This document shows, piece by piece, positions 20,620 through 30,605 of a stretch of DNA of 64,000 nucleotides. Position 1 is the first letter of the stretch, and the number at the start of each line of letters is the position of its first letter. Location: assembly GCF_019797845.1 (NCBI RefSeq), contig NZ_CP081864.1:4650001-4714000 (forward strand), given 5' to 3'. The position numbers and the translations under genes were made by a program. The notes beneath the pieces are model-generated. The model worked only from the letters and a program-made list of their open reading frames with translations, had not been told where the DNA came from and ran no database searches. Source of the DNA: Symbiopectobacterium purcellii. Its GTDB lineage: Bacteria > Pseudomonadota > Gammaproteobacteria > Enterobacterales > Enterobacteriaceae.

Positions 20620-23028
20620 TCAACAGCGCGCGTGCCAGATGCGCGTCTGATAATCATGAATCGCCCGATCGGCACTGAAAAAACCCATTCGCGCGGTATT
20701 CAACACACACCGTCGCGTCCATTCCTCCGTTTCACGATACAGCGCATCCACACGCTGCTGCGCCTGGCAATAAGGCGCAAAATCGGCCAACAACAGATAG
20801 GGATCGCCCTTATCCAGCAGGCTTTCAAGTAGCGGCGCAAACGCCGTTTTGTCACCGTGGCTAAACGCACCGCTGCCCAGTTCATCCAACAATGAGGTCA
20901 ACTGTGGCTCCTGCTTGAGCACCTCACGTGGATCGTAACCCTGTGACAGCACGCTTTTAACCTCATCCACCGTATGCCCGAAAATAAACAGGTTTTCTTC
21001 CCCGACTTCCTGCGCCATTTCCACATTGGCACCGTCCAGCGTCCCCACTGTCAGCGCACCGTTTAATGCCAGCTTCATGTTGCCGGTGCCAGAGGCCTCT
21101 TTCCCCGCGGTGGAGATTTGCTCCGACACATCGGCAGCGGGAATAATTCGCTCCGCCAGCGACACACGATAATCTGGAATAAACAGTATACGCAAACGAT
21201 CTCTAATATGTTTATCCCGATTAATCTTCTCCGCTATGCTATTAATGGCGTAGATAATGTTTTTTGCCAGCACATATCCAGGTGCAGCCTTAGCCCCGAA
21301 TAAAAAGACGCGCGGAACTATATCCAGATGCGGGTTATCACGCAATTGGCGATAAAGTGAAAGAATATGGAGCACATTCAGGTGCTGGCGTTTGTACTCA
21401 TGCAAGCGTTTGATCTGCACGTCAAACAGGGCGTGAGGATCCAGTTTCACCGCCAAATTCTGGCGTACCCAGTTTGTCAGATTTTCTTTATTTTGCTGCT
21501 TGATGGCACGGTAACGCGCCCGAAACGCACTGTCATTGGCGTACGGTTCGAGCGCGCGCAAGACGGGTAAATTCGTGGCCCAGGCCGTTCCAACGGTGTC
21601 ATCCAGCAGCGCCGACAGCACCGGGTTGCACTGCTTTAGCCAGCGGCGTGGCGTAATGCCATTCGTCACGTTATGAAATTTTTGCGGCCAGAGTTGATGG
21701 TATTCAGGAAACAGATCGCTCACGACCAGACGTGAATGCAGTGCTGCCACCCCATTAACGGCAAAGCAAACCACCACGCACAGGTTTGCCATACGCACCT
21801 GACGCTGATAGCGAATCGCGACACGCGGCCAGATATGCTGTGTCTGTGCGCCCCACCGCTGTTCCACCTGCGCTTTGAAATGCGTATCAATGGTGTTGAT
21901 AAGATCAAAATGGCGCGGCAGCAGGCGACGGAACAAGCCGTCATGCCAGCGCTCAAGCGCTTCTGGCATCAAGGTATGGTTGGTATAGGCAAACATACGT
22001 CGGGTAATGTCCCACGCCTCGTCCCAACCCAGATGATGTTCATCCAACAACACGCGCAACAATTACGGAATAGCCAGCGTCGGGTGTGTGTCGTTGAGCT
22101 GAATCACCTCCCGTTCCGGCAGCGCTGACAACGCCCACCCGGCCTGAAGGTGCCGCCGCACAATGTCTGCGACAGCGCAGGCACACTGAAAATATTGCTG
22201 CATCAGACGCAAACGCCTGCCAGCGGCATGATTGTCATTCGGGTAAAGCACTTTCGTCAGGCTCGCCGCTGACACACCGGCGCGCTCCGCGTCCAGATAG
22301 CGCCCGGCGTTGAATGCCGTGAGATCAAAAGGAGTTTCCGCCGTAGAGTGCCAGAGCCGCAACACCTGCACCACGCCGTTTTGATAGCCTAGCACCGGCA
22401 CGTCACGCGCCTCACCGCGAAAATAAAAGGCGGGCTGCCATTTTTCTTCCTCTCCATCGCGCTGTTCGATAGCTCCCCCGAAACCGACCTTCACGCTCAG
22501 TTCAGGCTGCGGTCGCCCCCAGGGGTACGCATCGCGCTGCCAATCATCAGGGTACTCATGCTGCTGGCATGCTTCGAAACGTTGGCGGAACAGGCCGTAC
22601 TGATAGTCCAGCCCGTAGCCCATCGCCGGCTGCCCCACCGTCGCCATGGCATCCAGAAAACAGGAAGCCAGACGCCCTAATCCTCCGTTACCCAATGCCG
22701 GGTCAGTCTCGCCTTCCAGTACATCGCTAAGGTTAAGCCCCTGCTCTGCCAGAACCTCTGATACGGCAGAGTGCCATCCCAGGTTAATCAGGTTATTGCC
22801 GGTGAGACGACCCGGTAAAAATTCCATGGAGAGGTAGTTAACATGACGGCCTGGCGGCGAATCGGGAGGGGTTATCGGGTGAGCGGCAAGCTGCTCCGCC
22901 AGTGCAGTACTGACAGCATGCCACTGCTGCTGGGCGCTGAGACAGGTCAGCGCCGCCACGCCATAGTATTGTCGTTGGCGGTGCAATGCAGCAATAAACA
23001 GCGTGCGGTTCAATGACAGCTTTCCCAT
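20620..23028 (-). pseudogene. malP: Maltodextrin phosphorylase interrupted by an ochre codon
   Basis: MalP releases glucose-1-phosphate from maltodextrins. The sequence follows E. coli MalP from [11 protein letters not shown] to the end, including the PLP-lysine motif [14 protein letters not shown]. Codon 322 (22063-22065) is TAA where MalP has Glu in AIPELLRVLIDEH; the frame is otherwise unbroken, so one G-to-T change would explain it. Without suppression a 321-residue fragment without the PLP site results. Only 43 bp separate its start from the glpR stop, so the usual malT-malP divergent control region is gone; AGGGGAGAGG before the ATG serves as ribosome site. Confidence 0.93.
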
Positions 23029-24752: not shown

Positions 24753-25007
24753 CGTGGTTTATCCGTTAGCAAATTGATTTGTCATAAAAATATCACATCG
24801 TTTTATTAAGAGGGTTGAAATATTGTTCTGATAAACAGGCGGTTTACCCTGACGCCCGCACCACGAGCACCGCTGGCGTGGGTAATTCGCTAAACATCAT
24901 CCACATACACACTTCCGTTTGCTTCCGTTTTGCCCATTATCCTATGACAATAGTCACTTTTTAACCATAGCCGCTCCTTTAGGCTCATATCCAGCAGCGA
25001 GGTGACC

Positions 25008-26273
25008 ATGTTCCTGGAAGAAAGACGTAATCAAATTCTGGCCTATTTAACCAAACACGAACGTGCCGGTGTTGATTATCTGGCCACCGCATTTGCCGTG
25101 AGCAAAGAGACGATCCGCAGCGACTTGAACGAGTTGGCGCGCTTGAATCTGGTTCAACGCTGCTACGGCGGTGCCATTATTGTGCGGCGCAGCTTGCAGT
25201 CTGAACTGATTGCCCCTCGCAGTGAAAATTTTGAAGTGCTGCTCAAGCGACTGGAAAAGCAGACCCGGCATCAAACCAGCAAACAGAAAGGAAACAAGAT
25301 GAACGGCAAGGTGTGTATTTTAGGATCGTTCAACGTCGATATCGTCGCCAAGGTGGCGCGTTTTCCCAAAGGCGGTGAATCGATCATGGCGCAGGGCAGC
25401 GCGCTCGGCCCCGGCGGCAAAGGCGCCAATCAGGCGATGGCCGCCAGTCGGGCTGGTTCACAGGTCTATTTTGTCACCAAGGTCGGCACCGATCAGTTCA
25501 GCCAGTTTGCCTATGACCATTTGTCGTCATCGGATATTCACGCCTTCAAGCTGTATCAATCCGATACCGAACCCACTGGCAACGCCATCATCTATGTCTC
25601 ACAGCAAAACGGCGAGAACATGATCGCCATATATCCCGGTGCCAACCAAACCATCACAGATGATGAAGTGGCGGCCATCGCCCCGGAATTAACAACGTCA
25701 GACGTGCTGTTGGTGCAGTTGGTGCAGTTGGTGCAGTTGGTGCAGTTGGTGCAGTTGGTGCAGTTGGTGCAGTTGGAGAATAACTTCTCCGCCACCCTGA
25801 ACGTCATCAAGCTGGCGCATGCGCTGGGCAAAAAAGTAATCCTCAATCCGGCCCCCTATTCCAGCGAGATACTGCCCTATCTGGATTATCTGGACGTGAT
25901 CACGTCCAACGAAACGGAAGCGTCACTGCTGTCGGGTATCGACATTCAGGATTTTGACAGCACCAAAGAGGCCGCGCTGAAAATTGCACGTATGGGTGCC
26001 AAGCGCGTCATCATTACCATGGGATCGCGCGGTGCGCTGCTGTATGACGGCCACCAGTTCCAACATATTCCGGCCTTTCCGGCGCTCGGCGTGGATACCA
26101 CCGGCGCAGGGGATGCCTTTAACGGTGCCTTTGCCGCCGCACTGGCTAACGGACAAAGCATGGTGCAGGCCGCGACCTACGCCTCGGCCTTTGCGTCTTT
26201 GGCAGTCGAACGGGAAGGTGCCTCAAACATGCCAGAACATCAACAGGTTATCGCGCGTTTATCACAACGTTAA
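25008..26273 (+). CDS. DeoR-type HTH fused to ribokinase-family (PfkB) sugar kinase
   Basis: Residues 1-55 form a DeoR winged helix ([20 protein letters not shown]). After a linker, a full PfkB kinase starts at about residue 98: [33 protein letters not shown] (substrate/ATP lid) and [12 protein letters not shown] (catalytic Asp). The ATG at 25008 has GAGG upstream. A second ATG at 25299 follows AAAGGAAACAAG, an excellent internal ribosome site, so the kinase may also be made alone. A seven-copy 9-bp repeat inserts extra LVQ units before LENNFSATL. It heads a cassette with an aldolase-family lyase and an MFS carrier, suggesting sugar-acid or pentose catabolism. The substrate is unknown. Confidence 0.85.
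25710..25772 (+). repeat. Seven perfect copies of a 9-bp tandem repeat inside the kinase gene
   Basis: TTGGTGCAG is repeated seven times without a mismatch, followed by a partial TTGG. It encodes Leu-Val-Gln units (DVLL, then seven LVQ-type units, then LENN). Related ribokinases have a single LLxQLE here, so about six units (18 residues) are extra. The unit is a multiple of three, so copy-number change keeps the frame. Confidence 0.95.
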
Positions 26274-26320: not shown

Positions 26321-27244
26321 ATGAAAAAAATCGATGGTATCGTCCCTGTCATGCTTACACCGTTCACCGAACAGAACGACGTAGACTATCCCGGCCTGGC
26401 CAACCTGATTGACTGGTATCTGGAAAACAAGGTCGATGCGCTGTTTGCCGTGTGCCAGTCCAGTGAAATGCAATTCCTGACGCTGGAAGAACGCGTGGCG
26501 GTAGCCCGTTTCGTTGTCGACCATGTGAAAGGCCGCGTGCCGGTGATCGCCTCCGGCCACATCAGTGACGACCTCGGCGCACAAATTGAAGAGCTGTCTG
26601 CCATGGCGCAAACCGGTATCGATGCGCTGGTACTGGTGACTAACCACCTCGATCCGCAGAAAACCGGCAGCGACACCTTCTTCAGTACGCTGAACAGCCT
26701 GCTGGAAGCACTGCCAGCCTCGCTGCCGCTGGGCCTGTATGAGTGCCCGGCACCGTATCGCCGCCTGCTGAGTGACGAAGAACTGACCTATTGCGCCAAC
26801 ACCGGCCGTTTCGTGGTGTTGAAAGACGTAAGCTGCGACCTGGACACCGTAACCCGTCGCGTCAAGCTGGTGCAGGACACCCCGCTTAATATCATCAACG
26901 CCAATGCCGCCATTGCCTTCCCGGCGATGAAAGCGGGCTCACGCGGTTTCAGCGGCGTGTTCACCAACTTCCACCCGGAACTGTACGTGTGGCTGTATCA
27001 CCACCATCAGGAAAACCCTGCGCTGGCAGATGAACTGGCCGATTTCCTGTCACTGGCCGCCGTCACTGAAACGTTGGGCTATCCGAAAAACGCCAAGATT
27101 TACCATCAACGCCGCGGCACCTTTGACAGCATTCACTGCCGGGTCAACAAGGATGACGTGCTGGAGAAATTCTGGGGATTGACCGTGATCCTCGACCAGA
27201 TTCGCCACGGCACCGCGCATTATCAGAAAAAAATTGCGCAATAA
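26321..27244 (+). CDS. Dihydrodipicolinate synthase/N-acetylneuraminate lyase family protein
   Basis: This 307-residue TIM-barrel class I aldolase has a GGAG ribosome site before the ATG. The Schiff-base lysine is in FVVLKDVSCD; the partner tyrosine segment reads LGLYECPAPYR, where DHDPS has YNxP; the substrate-carboxylate loop AVCQSSEMQFLTLEER replaces GTTGE. These changes argue against lysine biosynthesis and for a pyruvate-releasing aldolase acting on a keto-deoxy sugar acid. Gene order (kinase, lyase, carrier on one strand with short gaps) supports a catabolic operon. Confidence 0.82.
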   Translation: MKKIDGIVPVMLTPFTEQNDVDYPGLANLIDWYLENKVDALFAVCQSSEMQFLTLEERVAVARFVVDHVKGRVPVIASGHISDDLGAQIEELSAMAQTGIDALVLVTNHLDPQKTGSDTFFSTLNSLLEALPASLPLGLYECPAPYRRLLSDEELTYCANTGRFVVLKDVSCDLDTVTRRVKLVQDTPLNIINANAAIAFPAMKAGSRGFSGVFTNFHPELYVWLYHHHQENPALADELADFLSLAAVTETLGYPKNAKIYHQRRGTFDSIHCRVNKDDVLEKFWGLTVILDQIRHGTAHYQKKIAQ

Positions 27245-27452
27245 AAAATAACAACAATGCGCGGGAACACGTTGTGATTCCCGCGATGAAAAATAAAAAA
27301 CCAGTGGATTTTCAGCATGATCGTGTGTGACCAATCTGATTGGGCGCAAGAACTGCACGCCCTGCATCCTACATCAACGTCCTTACAGCCAGACTCACGG
27401 CGAATCGTTTATTCGCAGATTCCTCTCAGCCTGCTCACGGAAAATAAATAAA

Positions 27453-28751
27453 ATGAAAGAGACAATATCGTTATCTCAACCTGCTGCTGTTGCACCGCCA
27501 ATGCAAAAAATATCCCGTTTGCGTTGGAGCATTATTCTGGTGTTACTGATCGCCGCCGTGGTGAACTACCTGGACCGCGCCAACCTCAGTATCGCCAACA
27601 CCACGATTTCGAAAGAGTTCGGCTTTAGCGCCACCCAGATGGGCCTGCTGTTTTCGGCCTTTCTGTGGCCCTATGCGCTCGCCAATCTGCCTGCGGGCTG
27701 GCTGGTCGATAAATTCGGGCCGAAAAAAATGTTTTCCTGGGCGCTCGGCTTGTGGTCAGGGTTCACTATCCTCGCGGGTTTCGTTAACGGCTATTCCATG
27801 TTCTATGGCCTGCGCATGATGCTGGGCATCTCTGAATCACCGTTTTTTACCTCCGGCATCAAGATCACCCATCGCTGGTTCCCGAGCAATGAACGCGGAC
27901 TTCCCACCGCCATCATCAATACCGGCTCACAGATCGCCAACGCCGTTGCGCCGCCGATCCTGACTATCCTGTTGCTGACGATGGGCTGGCGCGGCATGTT
28001 TATCGCCATCGGTTTGGCGGGTATTCCGATTCTGCTGGTGTGGCTGAAGTTGTACCGTAACCCGACGCCCGCAGAAGAAGTGCAGATCCACGGCGACGCG
28101 GAAGCCGCTGAGACGCAACAAGCGAATCAACCCAAAGCGAGCTGGGGCTCTCTGTTTAAACACAAAACCACCTGGTTCATGATTCTGGGGAACTTCTCCA
28201 TCATGTTCACCATTTGGGTGTACCTGACCTGGTTGCCAAGTTATCTGGAGAGATCGCTCGGCTTCAGCCTGATGAAAACCGGCTGGGTGGCGTCCATCCC
28301 GTTCTTTGCCGGGATCATGGGTGTGTTGGTGGGGGGTGTAATTTCCGACCGGTTGATTCGTCGCGGTACCAACACCATTACCGCACGTAAAATCCCGATT
28401 GTGTGCGGTGCTGCACTGGCCGCCTGCTTCGTGGCACCGATCCCCTTCGTACACGACACCACCTTGTGTATCGCACTGCTGTCGCTGGGCTATTTCTGTT
28501 CTCAGATGCCGTCAGGGGTTATCTGGAAGCTGGCGACGGATATCGCCCCGAAATCGCAGGTGGCTTCACTGGGTGCTATCCAGAACTTCGGCGGATTCCT
28601 CGGCGCGGCCAGTGCGCCGATCGTCACGGGGATTATTCTTGATGCCACGGGCACCTTTACCAACGTCTTCCTGTTTGGCGCCTTCCTGCTCATGCTGGGG
28701 GCCATCAGCTACGGCTTCTTTGTGAAAAAGCCGATTCAGGCGGCGGTTTAA
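27453..28751 (+). CDS. MFS transporter, anion:cation symporter (sugar-acid) type
   Basis: This 432-residue inner-membrane carrier has twelve predicted helices. The hallmark segment NYLDRANLSIANTTI, then PAGWLVDKFGPKKMF, marks the ACS group that holds glucarate, galactonate and hexuronate importers. The ATG at 27453 is chosen because the protein then begins as in relatives (short hydrophilic head, RLRWSIILVLLIAAVVNY). It most likely imports the compound processed by the two preceding genes. A strong hairpin follows at once. Confidence 0.88.
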   Translation: MKETISLSQPAAVAPPMQKISRLRWSIILVLLIAAVVNYLDRANLSIANTTISKEFGFSATQMGLLFSAFLWPYALANLPAGWLVDKFGPKKMFSWALGLWSGFTILAGFVNGYSMFYGLRMMLGISESPFFTSGIKITHRWFPSNERGLPTAIINTGSQIANAVAPPILTILLLTMGWRGMFIAIGLAGIPILLVWLKLYRNPTPAEEVQIHGDAEAAETQQANQPKASWGSLFKHKTTWFMILGNFSIMFTIWVYLTWLPSYLERSLGFSLMKTGWVASIPFFAGIMGVLVGGVISDRLIRRGTNTITARKIPIVCGAALAACFVAPIPFVHDTTLCIALLSLGYFCSQMPSGVIWKLATDIAPKSQVASLGAIQNFGGFLGAASAPIVTGIILDATGTFTNVFLFGAFLLMLGAISYGFFVKKPIQAAV

Positions 28752-29127: not shown

Positions 29128-29350
29128 ACAAATACCACCTCGGGACAAAGAAAAAAGGCATTACGGCACAGCGCACGCCACTGTGACAGAGATGCTACTG
29201 TTTCAGTAAGGTAAGTCAATCGTCACATTTCTGTAATAAAACATTTTTCGTTATGCAAAAAAAAGAGCCATGATGAGAAAGATCGCGTTTTCACGCATCC
29301 GTTACGCGAGTCAGGCGCACACATGCTATTCACTCACCAGGAGCATCGCT

Positions 29351-30605
29351 ATGTCTTTACAACGAAAAGTACTGTTTTGTCTCCCGCTGTTACTGCCCGC
29401 AGCGCTCACTTTCCCAGCCGCCGCACAGGATGGCTACACGCTCGAACAGGTCGTGGTGTTTAGTCGTCACGGCTTGCGCGCTCCGTTAGCCAGCCCGAGC
29501 AGCGCGCTCGGCAAGGTCACGCCCGATGCCTGGCCACAGTGGGATACCCCCAGCAGTTACCTGACCACGCGCGGCGGCGTGCTGGAAGCCTATTTCGGCC
29601 ACTATTTTAGCGAATGGCTGGTAGATAACCGCCTGCTGGCTGCCGATACCTGTCCGACGGATAAAGACGTCTCGTTTTATGCCAACAGCCTGCAACGCAC
29701 CATCTCAACCGCACAATATTTCGCCGTGGGCGCGTTCCCCGGTTGTCTGGTGCCAGTTGTGCACAAAGAAAAATTGGGGACGATGGATGCCACCTTTAAC
29801 CCCCATCATCCGCAATGACAGTGCCACGTTTAAACAACAGGCCATCGACTCCATTAATCAAAAAGCCGGTGAAGGTGGGGTGAAAGGGCTCAATGAACGG
29901 CTGAAACCGGTGTATCAGCAGATGGCCGAGATCATTCGCTACAAGGATTCCGCCAACTGCAAGCAGGATAAACAGTGCGACCTGATGGCACAGGAAACTG
30001 ACGTGAAGATTGAGGCAGGTAAAGAGCCGGGTGTGGTGGGTCCGCTGAGAACCGGCACCTCGATTGCTGATGCCTTTATTCTGCAATACTACGAAGGCAC
30101 ACCGATTAACCAGATCGGCTGGGGACGCATTAAAGATGAGAAGCAACTGGCTGATTTGGTGTCGATCAAAGAGTACTACAACAGCGTAGTGTTCAGTGCC
30201 CCGGTGGTTGCCAAAGCCGTCTCGGCCAACCTGGTCAAAGCGCTGGCCGGTTCGTTTGGCGAGCAGCAGCCCAAATTCACCTTCCTGGTCGGCCACGATT
30301 CAAACGTCGCGTCGCTGTTCTCCGCACTGGGCGTGAAACCGTACCATCTACCGCACCAATTGGAAACCACGCCGATCGGCGGCAAGGTGGTGTTCCAACG
30401 CTGGCGCGATAACGCCAGTAACAAGGCGCTGTTGAAAGTGGAATACGTGTATCAATCGACCGAACAGCTCGCTACGCTGGCACCATTGAACCGCGCCAAC
30501 CCGCCGCAGCGCGTGACGCTAGCACTCAGCGAGTGTCCGACTAACGACAAGGGATTCTGTTCGTTCGACGATTTCGAGAAAATTACCAAGGCGCTAACTC
30601 AGTAA
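29351..30605 (+). pseudogene. agp: Periplasmic glucose-1-phosphatase, frameshifted in a C run
   Basis: A histidine acid phosphatase close to E. coli Agp, which lets cells use external glucose-1-phosphate. AGGAG precedes the ATG at 29351; a signal peptide ends near FPAAAQ. The RHGLRAP active-site motif and the GHDSNVASLF segment with the proton-donor region are present. At about 29797-29802 a run of five C replaces the four needed: the frame passes from TFNP into a short tail and stops at 29818, while the sense frame goes on as IIRNDSATF to ALTQ. One inserted base would explain all of this. Slippage in a homopolymer is easy in vivo and also a common sequencing fault. Confidence 0.88.

Follow-up and report, generated by a model that had tools for sequence, protein, structure and literature searches.

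The stretch analysed here, which we call the window, comprises 64,000 nucleotides of the Symbiopectobacterium purcellii genome (contig NZ_CP081864.1, positions 4,650,001 to 4,714,000); coordinates are those of the window, and the features of the kinase gene and its cluster lie on its plus strand. At 25008..26273 the window encodes a 421-residue fusion of a DeoR-type helix-turn-helix (HTH) regulator with a ribokinase-like PfkB kinase, read from an ATG at 25008, with a GTG at 25002 as the longest possible start. In the 25002 frame the HTH_DeoR domain (PF08220) covers residues 8-61 (25023..25184) and the PfkB domain (PF00294) residues 103-410 (25308..26231). Within the kinase half, at 25710..25772, lies a perfect in-frame (Leu-Val-Gln)x7 array, assembled as seven copies of the unit TTGGTGCAG. 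We propose that slippage in a dispensable catabolic gene has probably brought about a quiet, frame-keeping inactivation or strong impairment of this enzyme during symbiont genome erosion.

The kinase half scores 216.9 bits against PF00294 (gathering threshold 25.8), and the closest curated models of the fusion protein are ribokinases, in line with the enzyme family named in a preceding sequence-only reading of this DNA. Its score for the ribokinase equivalog model TIGR02152 (294.3) lies below the cut-off of 299.65, whereas the relatives at loci L035 (310.6) and L036 (306.6) lie above it; all three proteins remain below the cut-off of 341 of the stricter model NF008353. The GAGD motif is present, with D369 in TTGAGDAF invariant across 12 aligned sequences; in the Escherichia coli ribokinase RbsK the catalytic Asp of this motif is Asp255, and Glu143 binds ribose (both PMC9604405, in excerpt). 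The counterpart of Glu143, in an alignment to 1gqt counted by hand, is E257 (codon 25776..25778). This codon follows the array and a single Leu codon, so that 18 extra residues directly precede the sugar-binding Glu.

Rarity, distribution and origin of the array

The seven nine-base copies of the sequence-only reading were matched exactly on recount. Tandem Repeats Finder (TRF) reports a period of 9, 8.1 copies and 98% matches over 25704..25776, a span that also takes in GTGCTGTTG, an imperfect unit at the flank, and reaches the first base of the Glu codon. The lag-9 self-match run at the array is 59 bases long; the longest self-match in the remainder of the window, at any lag from 4 to 30, is 10 bases, and 200 order-2 Markov sequences of window length reached at most 15, which excludes a chance origin. 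A minus-strand frame of 84 residues across the array is taken as mechanical.

Repeats were surveyed in 464 kb of the genome, made up of the window and 20 segments of 20 kb each, including one picked for its weak similar repeat. This sample holds ten perfect arrays with at least three copies. Among perfect arrays of period 4-60 the TTGGTGCAG array has the most copies, the runner-up is a four-base array with 4.5 copies, and there is no second perfect array with at least five. The top TRF score in the sample, above that of the Leu-Val-Gln (LVQ) array, belongs to an imperfect array of 7.5 copies of a 54-base unit (L059:6700-7104), judged by eye to be Ala/Lys-rich. A second nine-base array, imperfect and with a closely similar motif (CAGCACCAA, 4.4 copies, 87% matches), lies at G000:C1:1990735-1990774 (L059:10735-10774), where inspection by eye suggests a membrane transporter gene. 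A genome search for two units of TTGGTGCAG with up to two mismatches gave two sites outside the array, each of them with two mismatches, which rules out further exact copies of the motif array. Three exact TTGGTGCAG units occur in 12 viral stretches; no relative of the kinase protein turned up when viral contigs were scanned by alignment.

Thirteen relatives gave a protein match. Twelve of them cover the site, and each reads LVQ or LLQ once, without expansion; the relatives thus bear out the single LLxQLE, or a close variant of it, that had been expected of ribokinases, and the frame-keeping insertion put at about 18 residues amounts to exactly 18 (six additional LVQ units) relative to the orthologs. 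In the thirteenth, Symbiopectobacterium endolongispinus (L047), the site is gone through an in-frame deletion of 405 bases, so that among the four congeners the single copy is present in three and the site lost in one. A search of 295 genomes of the family, drawn evenly from a larger group, gave 59 genomes with a match at E <=1e-90, the window's own included. We examined the site at 37 loci (30 of these matches and 7 other loci); with the window copy and one split gene set aside, no insertion at the site was found in any of 35 further loci from 32 genomes, three of which are represented twice. The 12-locus and 35-locus sets overlap and therefore are not independent counts. A conserved repeat is rejected by both (12/12 and 35/35 without expansion), and the gain postulated from the sequence alone is indeed lineage-specific: as far as examined, the expansion appears to be private to the window genome. 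A homolog of the kinase is also found in 20 plasmid records at E <=1e-60.

The single-copy site of L036, GTGCTGTTGGTGCAGTTGG, consists of two near-identical nine-base units, and L035, L037 and L038 hold weaker versions of this near-duplicate period. Slipped-strand mispairing would be expected to start from such a site. We envisage that the ancestral site probably held the imperfect duplicate GTGCTGTTG GTGCAGTTG G, as in L036, and that the nascent strand re-paired one unit back. Once two perfect copies were present, further slippage would have been easy and could have carried this lineage from one copy to seven, with the frame staying open because the unit has nine bases. A repair defect is neither needed nor seen: mutS, mutL and mutH each give one match over the cut-off and contain no stops, and mismatch-repair deficiency is rejected as the cause as far as gene content can tell.

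The single copy in the sister genomes places the expansion after the split from them. The earlier argument that perfect repetition implies recent slippage dates the event weakly. At the rate of private codons observed in this gene (25/404), the probability that 21 codons stay unchanged across the whole branch is ~0.27, and it is 0.47 under a stricter count that requires the three congeners to share one codon (14/393). Perfect identity of the copies alone is therefore no proof of a very recent expansion, and its age is fixed only poorly.

The kinase with its insertion

The sequence-only reading had described the repeat as expanding a β-strand. In the structure model, which was built on a shallow alignment of 12 rows and is poor overall, the strand is still predicted to be four residues long (233-236), and the LVQ repeat is modelled as coil with a predicted local distance difference test (pLDDT) value below 50; the extended strand is thus not borne out.

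Two replacements are private to the gene. P300S (25905..25907), at a position that is Pro in 13/13 relatives, changes the TPNETE motif to TSNETE, with N301 and E304 retained; this NxxE motif has a role in phosphate and Mg binding. S21G (25068..25070) lies in the HTH domain, at a position that is Ser in 12/13 relatives and Thr in 1/13. Relative to the three congeners, the remaining private codons are silent (23 of 25), and the corresponding silent and replacement codons number 26 and 1 in L035, 18 and 5 in L036, and 82 and 10 in L037.

An internal ATG (25299..25301) is conserved at the start of the kinase domain, with AAAGGA (25287-25292) 6 nt upstream. Both elements are kept in L035, L036, L037, L038 and L041 and are missing from L044. 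Their conservation suggests a possible separate start, from which a kinase-only product may be made besides the HTH fusion.

The surrounding gene cluster

The kinase gene is followed by a lyase of the dihydrodipicolinate synthase (DHDPS) family (26321..27244) and a major facilitator superfamily (MFS) transporter (27453..28751, with the start as in relatives; the longest frame begins at 27327). Two neighbourhoods of plasmid homologs also contain a YhcH-family gene, placed between the lyase and transporter genes in one and after the lyase gene in the other. Judged by these families, the cluster looks like one that cleaves a keto-deoxy sugar acid and then phosphorylates the freed aldose.

Kinase, lyase and transporter each align in one frame in L035, L037 and L038. 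In L036 the transporter is frameshifted, and L047 combines the kinase deletion with a frameshifted transporter. The ends of this 405-base deletion (L047:4971-5774) share a short near-identical sequence, which marks it as another slippage-type, frame-keeping event. Prodigiosinella confusarubida LacA (L046:4971-6245) lacks the end of the kinase gene, the lyase gene and the beginning of the transporter gene, which brings what is left of kinase and transporter side by side. In a further genome (G018) the kinase ortholog is split at the same ENN codons of the site by an insert of ~2 kb (L011, with open reading frames 563-1498 and 1480-2223 on the minus strand, and L101). The first frame of this insert starts V-E-N-N and matches DUF6862, and the insert start and the resumed gene share GGAGAATAAC / GGAAAACAAC; we take the insert to be reminiscent of the VENN-type modules of contact-dependent inhibition proteins.

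Two further genes of the window are damaged. On the minus strand malP, a maltodextrin phosphorylase by Pfam, contains an in-frame TAA at 22063-22065, where 5/5 aligned relatives (L035, L036, L037, L038 and L047) have a Glu codon; malP of L047 carries a different in-frame stop nearby. The histidine phosphatase (His_Phos_2) gene at 29270-30605 has its frame broken by a one-base length difference, and in L036 this gene has a deletion of its own, 11 bases long. L035 has neither lesion. Genome erosion is reported for the genus Symbiopectobacterium (PMC10019282), likewise in the available part of PMC13345370. The neighbouring-gene decay, the regulator-kinase fusion, P300S and the end of the array just before the sugar-binding Glu all go beyond the sequence-only reading.

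Inactivation, its rivals and known systems

On the basis of these results, we infer that kinase activity is lost or greatly reduced through the insertion, and of the two functions originally offered for the repeat, tuning and quiet inactivation, the latter is the better one. This small cluster, of a sugar-acid type, would be dispensable and on its way to being lost in the genus, which would explain why the expansion was tolerated. The gene would then be a pseudogene in the making with its frame still open, and its HTH half may continue to be produced and to bind DNA.

Several observations weigh against this interpretation. The model is still recognised as a ribokinase fold. Its pLDDT also drops below 50 at residues 63-136 and 178-219 and not at the array alone, and an insertion without aligned relatives may by itself lower model confidence. 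Should the strand be formed by the last copy, the 18 added residues might form a loop at that end of it which points away from the active site. Both the lyase and the transporter keep an open frame in this genome, and the pathway therefore shows no visible sign of being dead. The silent-to-replacement ratio is much like that of the sisters, indicating normal-looking selection elsewhere in the gene; this counts against long-standing relaxation and implies that the gene was constrained over most of the branch. Finally, the single-copy gene of L036 has more replacements than that of the window genome, some at conserved positions (S397F, P409R). Together with its frameshifted transporter, these replacements indicate that the L036 cluster may fail by another route.

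The main rival holds that the expanded kinase has kept all or part of its function: with the strand formed by the last LVQLE, the other six units would protrude as a loop at the sheet's far end, and copy number would tune stability or activity. Six additional hydrophobic LVQ units would, however, hardly form a soluble loop, P300S alters the TPNETE motif, predicted confidence is lost in the model, and no ortholog examined has an insertion at the site. We therefore consider a working kinase unlikely, if still a serious competitor.

Less credit is due to a reversible in-frame switch, in which copy number rises and falls in the population and toggles the kinase, and perhaps a regulated operon, in the manner of Salmonella mutL. 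Slippage on perfect 9-bp units is plausible, and in the mutL precedent the loss of one in-frame 6-bp copy renders the gene defective and its regain restores function (PMC2955026, in excerpt). But mutS, mutL and mutH are present without stops, the relatives examined lack the repeat at the site and thus give no sign of selection maintaining a switch, and a return to the single copy requires the loss of all six extra units, although intermediates might work. Nothing here supports a reversible switch for the window kinase, and we regard it as quite improbable. Very doubtful, too, is the idea that (LVQ)n forms a register-degenerate core strand, for which each of the copies could serve, while the sugar-binding Glu is placed properly by the register of the last copy alone. 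Copy number would then determine what share of the enzyme is in the correct register, and so exert graded, reversible and frame-neutral control of the regulator-kinase fusion instead of an on/off effect.

The 63 bases of the array fit in one short read, a nine-base unit is unlike a homopolymer error, and the genome is assembled as a single contig of 4,942,431 bases. That the true copy number is not seven, owing to an assembly or sequencing artefact, is very unlikely in our view, even though tandem repeats are known to cause assembly errors (PMC6868369, in the accessible part).

If the enzyme is indeed dead, as the favoured inactivation implies, it clearly exemplifies a class of broken genes in which the lesion, in-frame slippage inside the catalytic core, would be hidden from pseudogene callers that rely on frameshifts, stops or truncation. 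In young symbionts up to half of the ancestral genes can be broken (PMC13345370, in the part available), and open-frame lesions would make such counts of gene loss too low. A functional enzyme would mean that a ribokinase core can accommodate 18 repeated residues beside its substrate site, which would be surprising. Among the matches listed from the literature on Symbiopectobacterium tandem repeats, ribokinase slippage and symbiont pseudogenes, none reported the repeat described here.

Compared with E. coli RbsK (1RKD/1RK2) and the PfkB family, the window protein has the common fold, NETE, GAGD and the sugar-binding Glu after the LLxQLE strand; it differs by the N-terminal DeoR HTH fusion, the 18-residue LVQ insertion before this Glu and the exchange of Pro for Ser in TPNETE. 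The array resembles the 6-bp repeat of Salmonella and E. coli mutL in being a frame-keeping short tandem repeat in a protein gene that is changed by slippage, and mutL function is altered without a frameshift. In mutL, however, three copies are functional and conversion has been shown experimentally, according to the same excerpt of PMC2955026, whereas for the window kinase one copy is ancestral and seven are derived, with a presumed effect on function. At contingency loci a change in unit number shifts the frame, or the repeat is part of a promoter; the nine-base unit here lies within the coding frame. Tandem-repeat phase variation in Mycobacterium tuberculosis likewise involves a change of copy number, but those repeats are located on promoters and their variation was measured inside populations (PMC12817950, in excerpt), whereas the window array is coding.

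The near-complete pseudogenes of Symbiopectobacterium endolongispinus, a member of the same genus, and Sodalis endolongispinus are alike in their erosive setting and near-full length. Their frames are split by indels or stops, and pseudogenes are defined by a split frame, a length below 65% or few remaining gene features (PMC13345370, as far as its accessible part states). The open 421-residue frame of the window gene, neither split by an indel or stop nor truncated, falls outside this published definition, and callers that seek frameshifts, stops or truncation would miss the lesion. Events of this kind are known; what makes the present one interesting is that it lies in a catalytic core and escapes the usual definition of a pseudogene.
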